A stretch of DNA of 64,000 bases. Origin: a virus. Positions 26,479 to 33,815 of this stretch are shown here, piece after piece. Location: positions 1-64,000 of the IMG/VR virus record IMGVR_UViG_3300011115_000233; one strand, given 5' to 3'. The position numbers and the translations under genes are program-made. Below the pieces are notes generated by a model that searched no databases, was not told the DNA's origin, and saw only the letters and a list, made by a program, of their open reading frames with translations. Position 1 is the stretch's first letter. The number at the start of each line of letters is the position of its first letter.

Positions 26479-27111
26479 TTACTCTTCGCCCTCTTCGTCC
26501 CGGATGTCGTCGTCATCCGCTAGGGCGTCGTATGTTTCTTCTTCTTCCTCGTACGGGTTGAATACCGCCAGTTCTTCCTCGATGGTCTGGCCAAGGGGTG
26601 TGATATCAATAATGTCGGCGTTCAGCAGGCGCTTGACGCGCTCCTTGATCGCATTCTCCAACTCTTCGGGGTTCTTGTAGTTGATCGTGATCTCGGACTT
26701 GGAGGTGAACAGGCCAATGTCGCTGTGCTTACCGAGAAGCTCCAATGCCTTAAGCTCGTACTTAGTTTCGCCACAATTGGCGATCTCCAGCAGCTTGAAC
26801 GTAAGGGCTGCACGAACCTCGTTGGCATCAAGAGCCATACCTTGTCCGTACTGGCGCAGGAACTGCGCTGCACCATAGGCAGTTGATACTTGCTTTAGGT
26901 TCTTAGTCTGTCGTTTAGATACGACATCGGCCAGCTTCTTGGCCTCTTTCTCTTCGCTCTCGGAAAGCTCTAGCGGAGCACCCATCTCCACGAGCAGTTC
27001 TGCGGTATTTCCTGCAATCGCAATCTCTTCAAGGAGCGAACTGGGCTTTGATTCCGCAGTGTCATAAGGCACTGGGTGTGCTTTAGTAGGCTCAACTTTG
27101 ATTACGGGCAT
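26479..27111 (-). CDS. Terminase small subunit (candidate)
   Basis: A 210-residue protein three bases upstream of terL. It has a helical middle (SEEKEAKKLADVVSKRQTK, then AAQFLRQYGQGMALDANEVR) and an acidic C-terminal tail. The position and size fit a small terminase subunit, which recognises the packaging site, although the DNA-binding helix is not obvious by eye. The highly acidic tail (FNPYEEEEETYDALADDDD as landmark) may contact TerL or portal. A possible promoter lies at 27147-27176. Confidence 0.7.
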   Translation of the reverse strand: MPVIKVEPTKAHPVPYDTAESKPSSLLEEIAIAGNTAELLVEMGAPLELSESEEKEAKKLADVVSKRQTKNLKQVSTAYGAAQFLRQYGQGMALDANEVRAALTFKLLEIANCGETKYELKALELLGKHSDIGLFTSKSEITINYKNPEELENAIKERVKRLLNADIIDITPLGQTIEEELAVFNPYEEEEETYDALADDDDIRDEEGEE

Positions 27112-28028: not shown

Positions 28029-28057
28029 TTGACATTCTAATCTTAGTGTGAGACATA
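28029..28057 (+). promoter_or_regulatory. Early promoter P1
   Basis: TTGACA (28029-28034), 17 bases, GACATA (28052-28057), with TGTGAGAC over the -10 region. P2 (28755) and P3 (29783) show the same layout: TTGAC(A/T), 17 bases, GACA(A/T)A. The predicted start falls just at the leader hairpin at 28064. The -10 is not canonical, so the assignment leans on the three-fold conservation. Confidence 0.6.
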
Positions 28058-28063
28058 TTGATC

Positions 28064-28076
28064 GTCGAAGAACGAC
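28064..28076 (+). promoter_or_regulatory. 5'-terminal leader hairpin of P1 transcript
   Basis: GTCG-AAGAA-CGAC begins about at the predicted +1 of P1, followed by an unpaired CACCACACACTAGGGAG ribosome-binding region before ATG 28101. P3 has the same stem with loop GAGAA, and P2 a longer stem. Such 5'-terminal stems protect mRNA from decay. Confidence 0.5.
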
Positions 28077-28100
28077 ACCACACACTAGGGAGTAACAAAC

Positions 28101-28322
28101 ATGAGCATGGTTTATCTGGCAAATGTCCAGAGCATCGAGACGAACAAGGGTCTCAACTTCTACACAGTCAACGAGCACGTGGCTGTAGATTTCCCCACCG
28201 AGGATCGCCCCAACTACTTGGTCCTCTCGCTCTTCCATCACCTCGACCTCGTGGCAACCAAGGACTTCGCCACAGCGATGGACACCGCAGCCCGTTGGCT
28301 CAAGCAAGCCGAACCAGCCTAA
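28101..28322 (+). CDS. First early protein, 73 residues, unknown function
   Basis: A small soluble protein starting MSMVYLANVQSIETNKGLN, with VAVDFPTEDRPNYLVLSLF and a helical, Ala/Trp-containing end (AARWLKQAEPA). The first Met pair leaves a choice of start at residue 1 or 3. It is preceded by a GGGAG ribosome site and promoter P1 and followed by a GNRA-loop hairpin, so it is the first gene transcribed rightward. First genes of phages are often host-takeover or anti-defence factors; no homologue is recognised. Confidence 0.6.
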   Translation: MSMVYLANVQSIETNKGLNFYTVNEHVAVDFPTEDRPNYLVLSLFHHLDLVATKDFATAMDTAARWLKQAEPA

Positions 28323-28329
28323 CAACCAA

Positions 28330-28349
28330 GGGGGAGCGCAAGCTCCCCC
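28330..28349 (+). promoter_or_regulatory. Intercistronic hairpin with GCAA tetraloop
   Basis: Stem GGGGGAGC/GCTCCCCC with loop GCAA (a GNRA tetraloop), between the 28101 and 28371 genes. No T-run follows, so it is more likely an mRNA-stabilising or processing element than a terminator. Three similar hairpins follow at 28634, 29341 and 30330. Confidence 0.6.
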
Positions 28350-28370
28350 ACCCAACCCAAGGAGCACACT

Positions 28371-28625
28371 ATGTTGTATCGTGTTAACATCTCGACTGAC
28401 TGCGGCTTCGGCCTCCCAATCTACGGCAGGACACTCTTCGAGATAATGACTCTGGCATGGCCACTCATCCAGACATGGAAGCGCAAGTATAAGAAGGACA
28501 AGCCGCTGGCCCTGCTCCAGATAGAGTATCAAGGCTTGGTCATGGAGAACTACTTCCACCACATCAAGCAGGACGATGTCTCTGACTTCCTCTTCGATGC
28601 CATGGGATACCAACGAGCAAGCTAA
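28371..28625 (+). CDS. Early protein, 84 residues, unknown function
   Basis: The frame follows an AAGGAGCACACT ribosome site. The product starts MLYRVNISTDCGFGLPIYG, has a hydrophobic/Trp segment TLFEIMTLAWPLIQTW and an acidic C-terminal part. No recognised domain. It is transcribed from P1 behind the first hairpin and is followed by another hairpin. Probably an early host-interaction protein by position only. Confidence 0.6.
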   Translation: MLYRVNISTDCGFGLPIYGRTLFEIMTLAWPLIQTWKRKYKKDKPLALLQIEYQGLVMENYFHHIKQDDVSDFLFDAMGYQRAS

Positions 28626-28633
28626 GGCGGGAC

Positions 28634-28653
28634 GGGGAGGCGGAAGCCTCCCC
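28634..28653 (+). promoter_or_regulatory. Hairpin with GGAA tetraloop after 28371 gene
   Basis: GGGGAGGC/GCCTCCCC stem with loop GGAA, another GNRA loop. An outer pair GACGGGG/CCCCGTC (28631-28637, 28662-28668) could extend or compete with it. No T-run. Confidence 0.6.
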
Positions 28654-28670
28654 CAACGCTGCCCCGTCGA

Positions 28671-28692
28671 TGATAGTAATTCCGTGCGGACC
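28671..28692 (+). repeat. GATAGT...CCGTGCGGAC repeat, copy 1
   Basis: TGATAGTAATTCCGTGCGGAC; the TCCG-TG-CGGA part is an inverted repeat. Copies lie at 29686 and 30367, and a shorter CATGCGGACAGCC at 30470. Each full copy follows a gene-end signal (a GNRA-loop hairpin for copies 1 and 3, the intrinsic terminator for copy 2) and precedes a promoter or candidate origin. Role unknown; a protein-binding site is likely. Confidence 0.5.
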
Positions 28693-28727
28693 GCCTCTAG
28701 TTTCATCACGCGGACAGCTAAAAGCCT

Positions 28728-28740
28728 CTAACTTTGTTAG
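28728..28740 (+). promoter_or_regulatory. Palindromic site CTAAC-TTT-GTTAG
   Basis: Perfect copy of the dispersed 13-base palindrome, ending 14 bases before the -35 of promoter P2. The placement is that of an operator or activator site. Confidence 0.6.
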
Positions 28741-28754
28741 TATTACGATTTATG

Positions 28755-28783
28755 TTGACATTCCGGTCAGATTGTAAGACAAA
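28755..28783 (+). promoter_or_regulatory. Early promoter P2
   Basis: TTGACA (28755-28760), 17 bases, GACAAA (28778-28783), with TGTAAGAC across the -10 region. Upstream are the palindrome at 28728 and the CCGTGCGGAC repeat; downstream the leader hairpin. It drives the 165-residue early gene. Confidence 0.6.
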
Positions 28784-28791
28784 CAAGGGGT

Positions 28792-28809
28792 CAGCGGGAC
28801 ACACCGCTG
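28792..28809 (+). promoter_or_regulatory. 5'-terminal leader hairpin of P2 transcript
   Basis: CAGCGG-GACACA-CCGCTG starts about two bases after the predicted +1. It differs in sequence from the P1 and P3 leader stems but holds the same place, and is followed by the same ACCACACACACTAGGAGG ribosome-binding region. Conservation of structure without sequence supports function. Confidence 0.55.
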
Positions 28810-28835
28810 GCAACCACACACACTAGGAGGCCATC

Positions 28836-29333
28836 ATGGCTGTTAAGACTGTTACTACTCCCGTTGCAAAAGCACGGGCCGCTTACCTCACCTCGACCGC
28901 TTCGACCTACGGCGCTCTGCGTAAGTATGCTGAGGCCCTCACGGACAAGTTTGGCGAAGGCTGGTGGAAAATCCCGATGAAGGGTCCGCTGTCTGGCAAT
29001 CAGGCGAAGGTCCGCGACGATATCCGCGCCGAGAAGGCCCTCGTCAAAGAGGGTGCCGAGAAGAAGCAGAAGGTCAACCCCAAGTATAACATCTACAAGC
29101 CTTGGAGCGACGTTCTGGCCTACGTCGATGAGTCGAAGCAGAAGAAAGGGGCCGGTGCTAATGCGGCCCGCGAAATCCGCGAGCGGCTCAAGGTGGAGCT
29201 TACCAAGCTCTACAAGGCGGTGAAGTCGGATGATGGCGCGGACGATGCCGACCTCGCACAGGCCAACTGGAATGTTGGCGCGGCTCTTACCGCCCTCGGT
29301 GTGGACCTCACCGACCTCAACATCGAAGCCTAA
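28836..29333 (+). CDS. Early protein A, paralogue of 29855-30319
   Basis: A 165-residue basic, helical protein. It shares long blocks with the 154-residue protein at 29855: STYG near residue 23, FGEGWWKIPMKGPLSGN (about residues 39-55), LVKEGAEK, YKPWSDVLAYV and KKGAGANA, then RLKVELTKLYKAV. About 60% of positions look identical by eye. No known domain. Two tandem copies, each with its own promoter, 5' hairpin and 3' hairpin, suggest a strongly expressed early product. The GWW-IPMKGPLSGN block may be a ligand or nucleic-acid site; this is a guess. Confidence 0.7.
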   Translation: MAVKTVTTPVAKARAAYLTSTASTYGALRKYAEALTDKFGEGWWKIPMKGPLSGNQAKVRDDIRAEKALVKEGAEKKQKVNPKYNIYKPWSDVLAYVDESKQKKGAGANAAREIRERLKVELTKLYKAVKSDDGADDADLAQANWNVGAALTALGVDLTDLNIEA

Positions 29334-29340
29334 TCGGGAA

Positions 29341-29360
29341 GGGGAGGCGCAAGCCTCCCC
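29341..29360 (+). promoter_or_regulatory. Hairpin with GCAA tetraloop after early gene A
   Basis: GGGGAGGC/GCCTCCCC with loop GCAA starts seven bases after the stop of the 28836 gene. No T-run follows, and the next small gene begins 26 bases later. Confidence 0.6.
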
Positions 29361-29386
29361 GACCTCCCAAACTGGAAGGAACCAAA

Positions 29387-29566
29387 ATGGAAGACACGCT
29401 CAACAAAATCGGCTTCACCGCCATGCAATTCGAAAACCTCATCCACGACCTCGCGATGGAGGCTTGCAAGAACCAGTCGCCAAGCAGCGTCCACTGGATC
29501 ATGGCCGAGCACGACAAAATCCACCGCATCGTCCGCAGGCTCAATCAGGTGGCCACAGGCAACTAG
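29387..29566 (+). CDS. Small early protein, 59 residues
   Basis: The frame starts ATG 29387 after a GGAAGGAACC ribosome site and ends TAG 29564-29566. The product MEDTLNKIGFTAMQFENLIH... is helical and mildly charged, with an HWIMAEHDKIHRIVRRL helix. No recognised family. It is the last gene before a strong terminator at 29591. Confidence 0.65.
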   Translation: MEDTLNKIGFTAMQFENLIHDLAMEACKNQSPSSVHWIMAEHDKIHRIVRRLNQVATGN

Positions 29567-29590
29567 CCCCTACCACATCCCTAGTAACTA

Positions 29591-29615
29591 GCCCCGCTTC
29601 GGCGGGGCTTTTTTT
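29591..29615 (+). terminator. Rho-independent terminator
   Basis: GCCCCGC-TTCG-GCGGGGC followed by seven T's, a textbook intrinsic terminator with a UUCG loop, closing the P1/P2 early transcription unit. Confidence 0.92.
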
Positions 29616-29664
29616 GTGCCTCGTTCTGGCCATGCCCCGTTTGGGTCGCACCTAGTTAAATCGT

Positions 29665-29677
29665 CTAACAAAGTTAG
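29665..29677 (+). promoter_or_regulatory. Palindromic site CTAAC-AAA-GTTAG
   Basis: Perfect copy, between the terminator at 29591 and promoter P3. An imperfect copy (GTCAC-TTT-GTTAG, 29763-29775) lies seven bases before the P3 -35. Confidence 0.6.
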
Positions 29678-29685
29678 GGGCGCTG

Positions 29686-29708
29686 ATGATAGTTAATCCG
29701 TGCGGACA
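29686..29708 (+). repeat. GATAGT...CCGTGCGGAC repeat, copy 2
   Basis: GATGATAGTTAATCCGTGCGGACAGCC, 75 bases upstream of the P3 -35. The inverted TCCG-TG-CGGA core is kept although flanks differ from copy 1 by one insertion. Confidence 0.5.
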
Positions 29709-29782
29709 GCCATTAAGCAAGTAGGCGGATAGCCGCTAAGGCGACAGAAACGACGTAAATACGTCACTTTGTTAGATTTATA

Positions 29783-29811
29783 TTGACTTACGCTTTAATA
29801 TGTAAGACAAA
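29783..29811 (+). promoter_or_regulatory. Early promoter P3
   Basis: TTGACT (29783-29788), 17 bases, GACAAA (29806-29811), with TGTAAGAC over the -10 region, as in P2. It drives early gene B (29855). Confidence 0.6.
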
Positions 29812-29817
29812 GAGAGC

Positions 29818-29830
29818 GTCGGAGAACGAC
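29818..29830 (+). promoter_or_regulatory. 5'-terminal leader hairpin of P3 transcript
   Basis: GTCG-GAGAA-CGAC falls at the predicted +1 and is followed by ACCACACACTAGGAGTAACA before ATG 29855, nearly identical to the P1 leader. Confidence 0.5.
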
Positions 29831-29854
29831 ACCACACACTAGGAGTAACACGAA

Positions 29855-30319
29855 ATGCAGAACGTATCTAAAGCCCGCGCCGCCTTCCTGACGGCTTCCT
29901 CCAGCACCTACGGTAAGCTTAAGGCCTACGCTCTCGCTCTGGAAGAACAGTTTGGCGCAGGATGGTGGAACATCCCCATGAAGGGGCCGCTGTCGGGCAA
30001 CGAAGCCAAGGTGCGGGAAGCCATCCGCATCGAGAAGGGACTGGTCAAGGAAGGGGCCGAGAAGCGCAAGCTGTCCAACGTCTACAAGCCATGGTCGGAT
30101 GTGCTGGCCTACGTCAAGGGAGAGAAGAAGAAGGGTGCAGGTGCTAACGCACCACGTGACATCCACGACCGGCTGAAGATCGAGTTGACCAAACTCTACA
30201 AGGCAGTGCGCAACGACGATGCTGCAGACACCAAGGTGCTGGCACAGACCAACTGGCACGTTGGGAAGGCACTGGAAGAACTGGGTGTCGATCTGACCGA
30301 ACTCAACATCACAGAGTAA
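29855..30319 (+). CDS. Early protein B, paralogue of 28836-29333
   Basis: A 154-residue protein, shorter at the N-terminus than protein A, with the same core blocks: STYGKLKAYALAL, FGAGWWNIPMKGPLSGN, LVKEGAEK, VYKPWSDVLAYV, KKKGAGANAPR and LKIELTKLYKAV. The charged middle is shortened by a few residues. Codon choice differs enough that the duplication is not recent. It has its own promoter P3 and 3' hairpin (30330). Function unknown; high expression early in infection is inferred from signals. Confidence 0.7.
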   Translation: MQNVSKARAAFLTASSSTYGKLKAYALALEEQFGAGWWNIPMKGPLSGNEAKVREAIRIEKGLVKEGAEKRKLSNVYKPWSDVLAYVKGEKKKGAGANAPRDIHDRLKIELTKLYKAVRNDDAADTKVLAQTNWHVGKALEELGVDLTELNITE

Positions 30320-30329
30320 CCACAGGGAC

Positions 30330-30349
30330 GGGGAGGCGAAAGCCTCCCC
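30330..30349 (+). promoter_or_regulatory. Hairpin with GAAA tetraloop after early gene B
   Basis: GGGGAGGC/GCCTCCCC with loop GAAA, 10 bases past the stop of the 29855 gene. The fourth of the GNRA-loop hairpins; no T-run. Confidence 0.6.
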
Positions 30350-30366: not shown

Positions 30367-30390
30367 GTGATAGTAACTCCGTGCGGACAG
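30367..30390 (+). repeat. GATAGT...CCGTGCGGAC repeat, copy 3
   Basis: GTGATAGTAACTCCGTGCGGACAGCC, followed 47 bases later by the palindrome at 30437 and then by the candidate origin. A shortened fourth copy (CATGCGGACAGCC) lies inside the origin region at 30470-30483. Confidence 0.5.
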
Positions 30391-30436
30391 CCTCTGACTT
30401 GAAGGCGTAAAGCTTACAATACCTACGTCGATAGGT

Positions 30437-30449
30437 CTAACTTAGTTAG
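30437..30449 (+). promoter_or_regulatory. Palindromic site CTAAC-TTA-GTTAG
   Basis: Perfect copy at the left border of the TGTAAG repeat cluster (candidate origin). Confidence 0.6.
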
Positions 30450-30458
30450 AGGTTCTTA

Positions 30459-30819
30459 TTGTAAGGAAACCATGCGGACAGCCACCCTCTGTAAGGGAAT
30501 TTTGCTTTGTAAGGAAACTACCCCCTATTGTAAGAAAAAAACCCTAGGGTTTCTGCGCTTTGTACGGGTTGTAAGGAATGTAAGGCGTTTTTCTTACAGA
30601 CTCGACCAAGCAAGCCTCCTCGCACATGCGTAACCAATGTCAGGAAATCCCTATTATTATTATTATTTTTATTAACTTTCTTACACTACACCCCATTTTC
30701 CTTCCGAGACCCGCAGACTTCTGCCGTTTCCGATTGTAAGGTTTTACCCTAAATTTCCCTTACAAAAGGCCCATTTCCCTTACATTGCCACCATTTCCTT
30801 ACAGAGATTTCCCTTACAA
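30459..30819. other. Candidate replication origin: TGTAAG iterons around an AT-rich core
   Basis: A 670-base stretch without a gene (30320-30989) holds 13 copies of a repeat close to TTGTAAGGAAA. Plus orientation: 30459, 30489, 30507, 30528, 30569, 30578, 30734. Reverse orientation (TTTCCCTTACAA-like): 30591, 30677, 30754, 30774, 30794, 30808. A variant TTGTACGGG is at 30560. The main gap between the two groups contains the most AT-rich stretch, TATTATTATTATTATTTT, at 30652-30675. Several copies are spaced about 20 bases, two helical turns. This is the layout of iteron origins. No initiator (RepA/DnaA-like) is recognised, so the role is inferred. Confidence 0.6.
30539..30552. repeat. 14-base palindrome inside the candidate origin
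   Basis: AAACCCTAGGGTTT, a perfect palindrome between two iteron copies. It may be a protein-binding site or an extrusion point. Confidence 0.45.
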
Positions 30820-30878: not shown

Positions 30879-30907
30879 TTGACATAAAGAGGTTTTTGTG
30901 CTACATT
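30879..30907 (+). promoter_or_regulatory. Extended -10 sigma-70-type promoter
   Basis: TTGACA (30879-30884), 17 bases ending TGTGC, TACATT (30902-30907). The TGC before the -10 is an extended -10. The preceding CCACATCGC is also found before the 33787 promoter, and both are followed by GAAAAGAAAAAA-like sequence. Palindromes at 30839 and 30963 flank it. Confidence 0.75.
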
Positions 30908-33786: not shown

Positions 33787-33815
33787 TTGACATGAGCATT
33801 ACATTGTGCTATAAC
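33787..33815 (+). promoter_or_regulatory. Strong extended -10 promoter of the AAA+/VWA unit
   Basis: TTGACA (33787-33792), 17 bases, TATAAC (33810-33815) with TGTGC before it, giving an extended -10. CCACATCGC precedes it as at 30879. Five or six of six consensus positions match. The palindrome at 33870 follows. Confidence 0.85.

Follow-up and report, generated by a model that had tools for sequence, protein, structure and literature searches.

Three copies of a conserved promoter-and-leader cassette, probably of host sigma70 type, open the right arm of a metagenomic phage genome

At the start of its right arm, the virus record IMGVR_UViG_3300011115_000233 (IMG/VR) carries three cassettes, P1, P2 and P3, which are probably copies of one conserved early unit: a host sigma70-type promoter joined to a protective stem-loop at the 5' end of the transcript. 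The stretch analysed here (the window) comprises 64,000 of the 64,461 bases of this metagenomic record. The cassettes are termed early because of their position at the start of the right arm, and their timing in infection is presumably early. The initial annotation had described three units sharing a -35 element, a 17-base spacer, an unusual -10, a stem at the predicted +1 and a ribosome region, and we found them as described: P1 at 28029 (TTGACA-N17-GACATA), P2 at 28755 (TTGACA-N17-GACAAA) and P3 at 29783 (TTGACT-N17-GACAAA). Their parts are as follows, where the rank is that given by the matrix introduced below and the predicted +1 lies seven bases downstream of the -10 hexamer.

28029-28057, + strand: P1 core promoter; -35 TTGACA (28029-28034), TGTGA (28047-28051), -10 GACATA (28052-28057); matrix rank 3
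28064-28100, + strand: P1 leader; predicted +1 at 28064, hairpin GUCG-AAGAA-CGAC (28064-28076), unpaired ribosome region CACACACTAGGGAG
28755-28783, + strand: P2 core promoter; -35 TTGACA, TTGTAA, -10 GACAAA (28778-28783); matrix rank 1
28790-28835, + strand: P2 leader; 8-pair hairpin GUCAGCGG-GACACA-CCGCUGGC (28790-28811), ribosome region CACACACTAGGAGG
29783-29811, + strand: P3 core promoter; -35 TTGACT, ATGTAA, -10 GACAAA (29806-29811); matrix rank 2
29818-29854, + strand: P3 leader; hairpin GUCG-GAGAA-CGAC (29818-29830), ribosome region CACACACTAGGAG

The cassettes stand far above chance expectation. The pattern TTGAC[AT]N17GACA[AT]A occurs three times in the 64 kb, always on the + strand and always within P1-P3 (200 dinucleotide shuffles: mean 0.03, maximum 1), and the 11-base sequence CACACACTAGG is found exactly three times in the window, each time in a cassette (shuffles: mean 0.04). 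Other -10 registers, with a spacer of 16 or 18 bases (AGACAA, ACAAAC/ACATAT), were considered and fit more poorly than GACAAA.

The strongest support comes from related metagenomic phages, in which cassettes lie at the equivalent place. We aligned 14 early sites from eight contigs without gaps, the window included, with 11 of the sites lying outside it. Invariant in all 14 are the TTG of the -35, the 17-base spacer, TGT at -17 to -15, GACA at -12 to -9 and TC at +2/+3; TTGAC is present in 10/14, and the -35 elements of P1-P3 match TTGACA at five or six of six positions. A matrix built from the 11 non-window sites places P2 (36.2 bits), P3 (32.7 bits) and P1 (25.4 bits) as the top three scores of the window, the next best being the reverse of P3 at 18.9 bits. 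The proposal that these are promoter-plus-leader units with a stem at +1 is thus strongly supported by conservation. Farther away, a pattern scan of a viral collection recovered TTGACA-N17-GACAAT followed by a hairpin at +1, as an operon promoter, in the distant relatives L068, L080 and L082. As a separate observation, the early promoters of L010, L011, L041 and L014 read TTGTTC-N17-SATAAC, and a hairpin starting with GUC follows in 3/4 of these leaders tested.

The leader keeps its register with the promoter as strictly as the promoter keeps its own elements. In 14/14 sites the predicted first base is G or A and is also where the best-folding hairpin begins; bases 2-5 of the 14 predicted transcripts have a mean pairing probability of 0.83 (mean folding z -2.85), while the last 22 leader bases are 82-99% unpaired. 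The window's stems begin at 28064, 28790 and 29818, each on its predicted +1. As had been noticed from the window alone, the P2 stem holds the same place with another sequence, having eight pairs where P1 and P3 have GUCG/CGAC in common. Across the set, stems vary in sequence and length (GUCG/CGAC, GUCAGCGG/CCGCUGGC, AUCGAG/CUCGAU, AUCGG/CCGAU), and paired changes preserve the pairing, with a G-C to A-U replacement at the closing pair and another at the fourth pair. Taken alone, the P2 stem is the only one of the three to fold clearly better than shuffled sequences (z -3.3 and -3.7); the orthologous P1 leaders L015P1, L016P1 and L060P1 fold like the P1 leader. In two further lineages (L045, L059) a stem begins within a few bases of the start, whereas the leaders of ordinary operon promoters (window, L016, L060, L018, L024) have no starting hairpin (0.00-0.20). 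A search of Rfam gave no match near the gathering score. Downstream of the stem, all aligned leaders have a CACACAC stretch, which most likely serves to keep the ribosome site unpaired.

Stem-loops at the 5' terminus slow 5'-end-dependent decay and stabilise mRNA (Emory 1992; Bouvet and Belasco 1992, as cited in PMC3997798), and a protective role of this kind is what we favour for the hairpins here. A different role, in promoter escape or early pausing or as the target of a phage RNA-binding regulator, would also account for a hairpin that starts at +1 and holds its place while its stem changes, with an invariant CACACAC after it. As neither loop nor stem sequence is conserved, however, sequence-specific recognition of the stem is argued against, and we regard such a main function as rather unlikely.

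Which polymerase reads the cassettes can be approached by comparison with the operon promoters of the same phages. Two of these lie in the window:

30879-30907, + strand: operon promoter P4, TTGACA-N17-TACATT with TGC; serves here as the ordinary class for comparison
33787-33815, + strand: operon promoter P5, TTGACA-N17-TATAAC with TGC

These two and their counterparts in L016, L018, L024 and L060 have the -35 and the TGT of the early class, with -10 boxes of TACATT, TACAAT, TACAAA or TATAAC that are mostly preceded by TGTGC and followed by an A-rich start; the early class differs chiefly in having T replaced by G at -12 and by A at -7. Within the early class, the extended -10 appears to compensate for weak elements. 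Four sites have a poor -35 (TTGCAA, TTGTGT) and two a poor base at -8, and all six of these have G at -14, while the remaining eight have A there and never G (0/8; p 0.0003 on the assumption of independent sites, which holds only in part). Judged from these sequences, the apparent trade-off between TGn and -35 corresponds to the mix-and-match behaviour seen in sigma70 promoters.

The initial annotation had suggested that the unusual -10 may need a helper or a sigma factor of another preference. Such a factor may take part but is not required, since the register, the spacer and the TGn/-35 trade-off fit sigma70 and G at -12 is documented for it (PMC2613000). In its explicit form, the suggestion is that a dedicated specificity factor, either an alternative host sigma or a phage-borne helper, reads GACAAA and so separates the early promoters from the TACAWT operon promoters. 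The consistency with which, within these phages, G at -12 and A at -7 divide the early promoters from most operon promoters, and the invariance of GACA, are what such a factor would produce. The -35, spacer and TGT are nevertheless common to both classes, the trade-off obeys sigma70 rules, and the L068 operon promoter combines GACAAT with the T at -7. Furthermore, the genes read first cannot need a phage-made factor unless the virion brings one in, and the record contains no Sigma70_r2 match (the control worked). We therefore consider a dedicated factor quite unlikely. As for a phage polymerase, the record gave no PF00940 match to a single-subunit RNA polymerase, although the control genomes gave none either, and the early proteins that were scanned included no RNA polymerase.

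Several observations weigh against the favoured assignment to a sigma70-type promoter with a terminal hairpin. The 14 sites are linked by descent, and their counts overstate independence. All 14 have A at -11, and position -7 is A, C or G and never T (0/14); because T at -7 is absent, a standard sigma70 scan skips P1-P3, and we describe them as working like sigma70 promoters while assigning membership of the class with reserve. The full invariance of the G and C of the -10 exceeds what plain sigma70 recognition demands. On the RNA side, the four-pair hairpins of P1 and P3 are weak in isolation, so that the case for them rests on the comparative set, and among the equivalent leaders of deeper lineages 3/4 start with a stem and that of L010 does not.

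Taking these points together with the conservation, we infer the following course of events for the sigma70-type reading. Host holoenzyme would recognise the -35 TTGACW, the 17-base spacer, TGT at -17 to -15 and the -10 GACAWA, the weakness of the latter (G at -12, A at -7) being offset by the near-consensus -35 or, where the -35 or the hexamer is poor, by TG at -15/-14. RNA would start exactly at the hairpin, and behind this would come an unpaired, CA-rich stretch for ribosome loading and a ribosome site rich in purines. The terminal hairpin would most likely shield the first mRNAs from 5'-end-dependent decay and keep the ribosome site open. The cassette would have spread by duplication, P2 and P3 together with their paralogous genes and P1 with a leader in common with P3.

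The strict conservation of the -10 also invites an explanation from replication, as the -10 regions of P2 and P3 resemble repeats located downstream of the cassettes:

30416-30818, both strands: 14 origin-type repeats (TTGTAAGGAAA) surrounding an AT-rich stretch

The TGTAAG repeats lie mostly on the + strand to the left and on the - strand to the right of the AT-rich stretch near 30651, and the region looks like a replication origin. P2 reads TTGTAAGACAAA and P3 ATGTAAGACAAA, both near the origin-type repeat (TTGTAAGRAAA). The -10 of P2 and P3 might therefore double as a site for the putative origin protein (TTGTAAGACAAA), which on accumulating would cover it and end early transcription. When the 64 kb outside the origin are scored with a matrix of the 14 repeats, the P2 -10 comes first and P3 fourth, and early promoters take ranks 1 and 2 in L016 and 2 and 3 in L060. 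The repeat sequence is lineage-specific, and in L011/L014, where it is TTGTTAGTAAA, the best non-origin match falls on the -35 of the early promoter, barely above background. P1, however, ranks only 63rd, and the early promoters of L018 and L024 rank 80th and 22nd despite unchanged repeats. Copies within a lineage are homologous, so the matches represent few independent events, and no binding protein for the repeats was identified. Altogether, we judge this double duty unlikely. If true, it would tie the shut-off of early transcription to the onset of replication, and would explain both the invariant non-consensus -10 and possible joint shifts of repeat and promoter between lineages.

The history of the cassettes can be followed through the genes behind them:

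28101-28322, + strand: first gene, 73 amino acids (aa); no family match
28371-28625, + strand: 84-aa open reading frame behind the first gene; no family match
28836-29333, + strand: P2-driven gene, 165 aa; all-helical model, without family or significant fold match
29855-30319, + strand: P3-driven gene, 154 aa; paralogue of the 165-aa gene

The 165-aa and 154-aa products are 68% identical, and because these genes are paralogues, the P2 and P3 cassettes represent a duplication and not independent repeats. Over 43 bases, the P1 and P3 leaders show 86% identity. Apart from the window, only the close contig L015 was found to have the P3 copy; L016, L028 and L060 have P1 and P2, and L018, L019, L021 and L024 have a single cassette before the same gene. 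In the distant L010, L011 and L014, the first place is taken by a possible member of the 165-aa/154-aa family (the family alignment is weak), and the 73-aa gene follows. As the 73-aa gene is neither first nor equipped with its own promoter there, its cassette seems to have been gained in the lineage of the window. Paralogy and the similar leaders could suggest that the cassettes resemble each other through recent duplication alone, with a promoter under no functional constraint. We consider this highly improbable: the elements are kept at orthologous positions though the surrounding bases, hairpins and -35 differ, and the invariant positions in L016, L018, L019, L021, L024 and L060 largely refute it.

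Upstream of two of the cassettes lie palindromes. The initial annotation placed one before P2 and an imperfect one before P3, which agrees with what we found (P1 has none):

28728-28740: perfect palindrome CTAACTTTGTTAG upstream of P2; centre at -56, with the same site at -56/-57 in L015, L016 and L060
29763-29775: imperfect palindrome GTCACTTTGTTAG upstream of P3; two mismatches, centre at -49

The L018-L024 early promoters have CTCAC(T/C)TTGTTAG at -62 to -73. The distance upstream of P2, P3 and these promoters ranges from -48 to -73, and this variability argues against an activator acting from a fixed face. The palindrome CTAACNNNGTTAG has 18 copies between 28728 and 38668 of the window, many of them just before ribosome sites of the right-arm operon, and related phages have other palindromes in similar places (GTTACN3GTAAC, GTAGCGTNACGCTAC, CGTGGTACRTACCACG, AACATTGAATATTCAATGTT, CCTACAN3TGTAGG, CGTGGCACGTGCCACG, TTTGTGTATRACTTATACACAAA). 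From their arrangement, we take the palindromes to be a putative operator array whose specificity has diversified across related phages. A further element, GATGATAGTWAWTCCGTGCGGACAGCC, is repeated at 28670-28695, 29686-29711, 30367-30392 and 30471-30484, that is, upstream of P2, upstream of P3 and near the origin, and relatives hold TGATAGT / GACAGT-type versions of it.

The early genes end in strong GC hairpins with a GNAA loop and no T run, and an intrinsic terminator separates the P2 and P3 units:

28330-28349, + strand: hairpin GGGGGAGC-GCAA-GCTCCCCC after the first gene; -19.3 kcal/mol, z -5.3, no T run on the + strand
28634-28653, + strand: hairpin GGGGAGGC-GGAA-GCCTCCCC
29341-29360, + strand: hairpin GGGGAGGC-GCAA-GCCTCCCC
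29590-29616, + strand: intrinsic terminator between the P2 unit and the P3 unit
30330-30349, + strand: hairpin GGGGAGGC-GAAA-GCCTCCCC

In the relatives L004 and L005, a T run is present at some of the early-gene 3' hairpins.

The left arm (to about 27.6 kb, minus strand) carries terminase, portal and head genes. The right arm runs from 28 kb on the plus strand, with the small genes lacking a family first, and further genes for an ATPase, a VWA/metallopeptidase-type protein (DUF2201), DNA polymerase A, an exonuclease, a helicase and a primase/helicase. PHROGs and Pfam scans of the early proteins gave no family for the genes behind P1, P2 and P3. The structure model of the 165-aa protein is all-helical (predicted local distance difference test, pLDDT, 75) and had no significant fold match in the PDB or among viral models; a PDB sequence search gave nothing above noise. 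Among cultured phages there were no DNA relatives for the cassette region, and none for a 210-aa flanking protein. For the host, two prophage-like matches in metagenome-assembled genomes (MAGs) were considered and neither was used (N runs and unlike upstream gene content; short contig). A phage protein 58% identical to the product of window 26479-27111 is present in a bacterial chromosome record (L066, Dehalococcoidia MAG CP070693.1), where its placement, with N runs nearby, is probably a misassembly or contamination.

These comparisons give a base-level definition of early expression (TTGACW-N12-TGTRRGACA, a hairpin at +1, CACACAC and a ribosome site) for an uncultured phage family for which we found no transcription data. 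They also show that promoter and leader move together when first genes are duplicated. Early regions can be annotated by this definition, the cassette could serve as a strong expression part, and the sites are natural test material for the tolerance of sigma70 to G at -12. In the literature, we found no paper that treats iterons together with early promoters and host RNA polymerase, or stoperators together with early promoters, and the transcriptome of HTVC027P, a phage with a terminase in common, does not discuss promoters.

Compared with known systems, the cassette is of a general kind already described, a host-polymerase promoter with a 5' stem-loop leader, and is unusual in its strictly kept -10 core. 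One comparison is with P4 and P5 of its own phage family, with which it has the -35, spacer and TGT in common and most probably the holoenzyme too; the operon class differs in having TACAWT or TATAAC, TGTGN where early sites have TGTRR, an A-rich start in place of the hairpin, and its palindrome downstream instead of upstream. T7 A1 and lambda PR, both strong early promoters of phages, have 17-base spacers. Both are non-canonical at -12, and in Pminor, with a -10 of GAAAAC, G at -12 is offset by the -35 and a TGn (G at -14) for the ordinary holoenzyme (review PMC2613000). The early sites resemble these three in their near-consensus -35, non-T base at -12 and compensating TG or T at -15/-14 (PMC2613000). 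The 17-base spacer is a further common feature. Here, however, the T at -7 is lost as well, position -10 is always C, the whole family keeps the GACA core unchanged and the promoter is tied to a fixed leader. Like the stabilising stem-loops of ompA and papA mRNA, the hairpins sit at the extreme 5' end (on the predicted +1) and are followed by a single-stranded ribosome region; those of P1 and P3 differ in being short (four pairs) and in belonging to a cassette repeated before several phage genes, where they would have a similar stabilising role.

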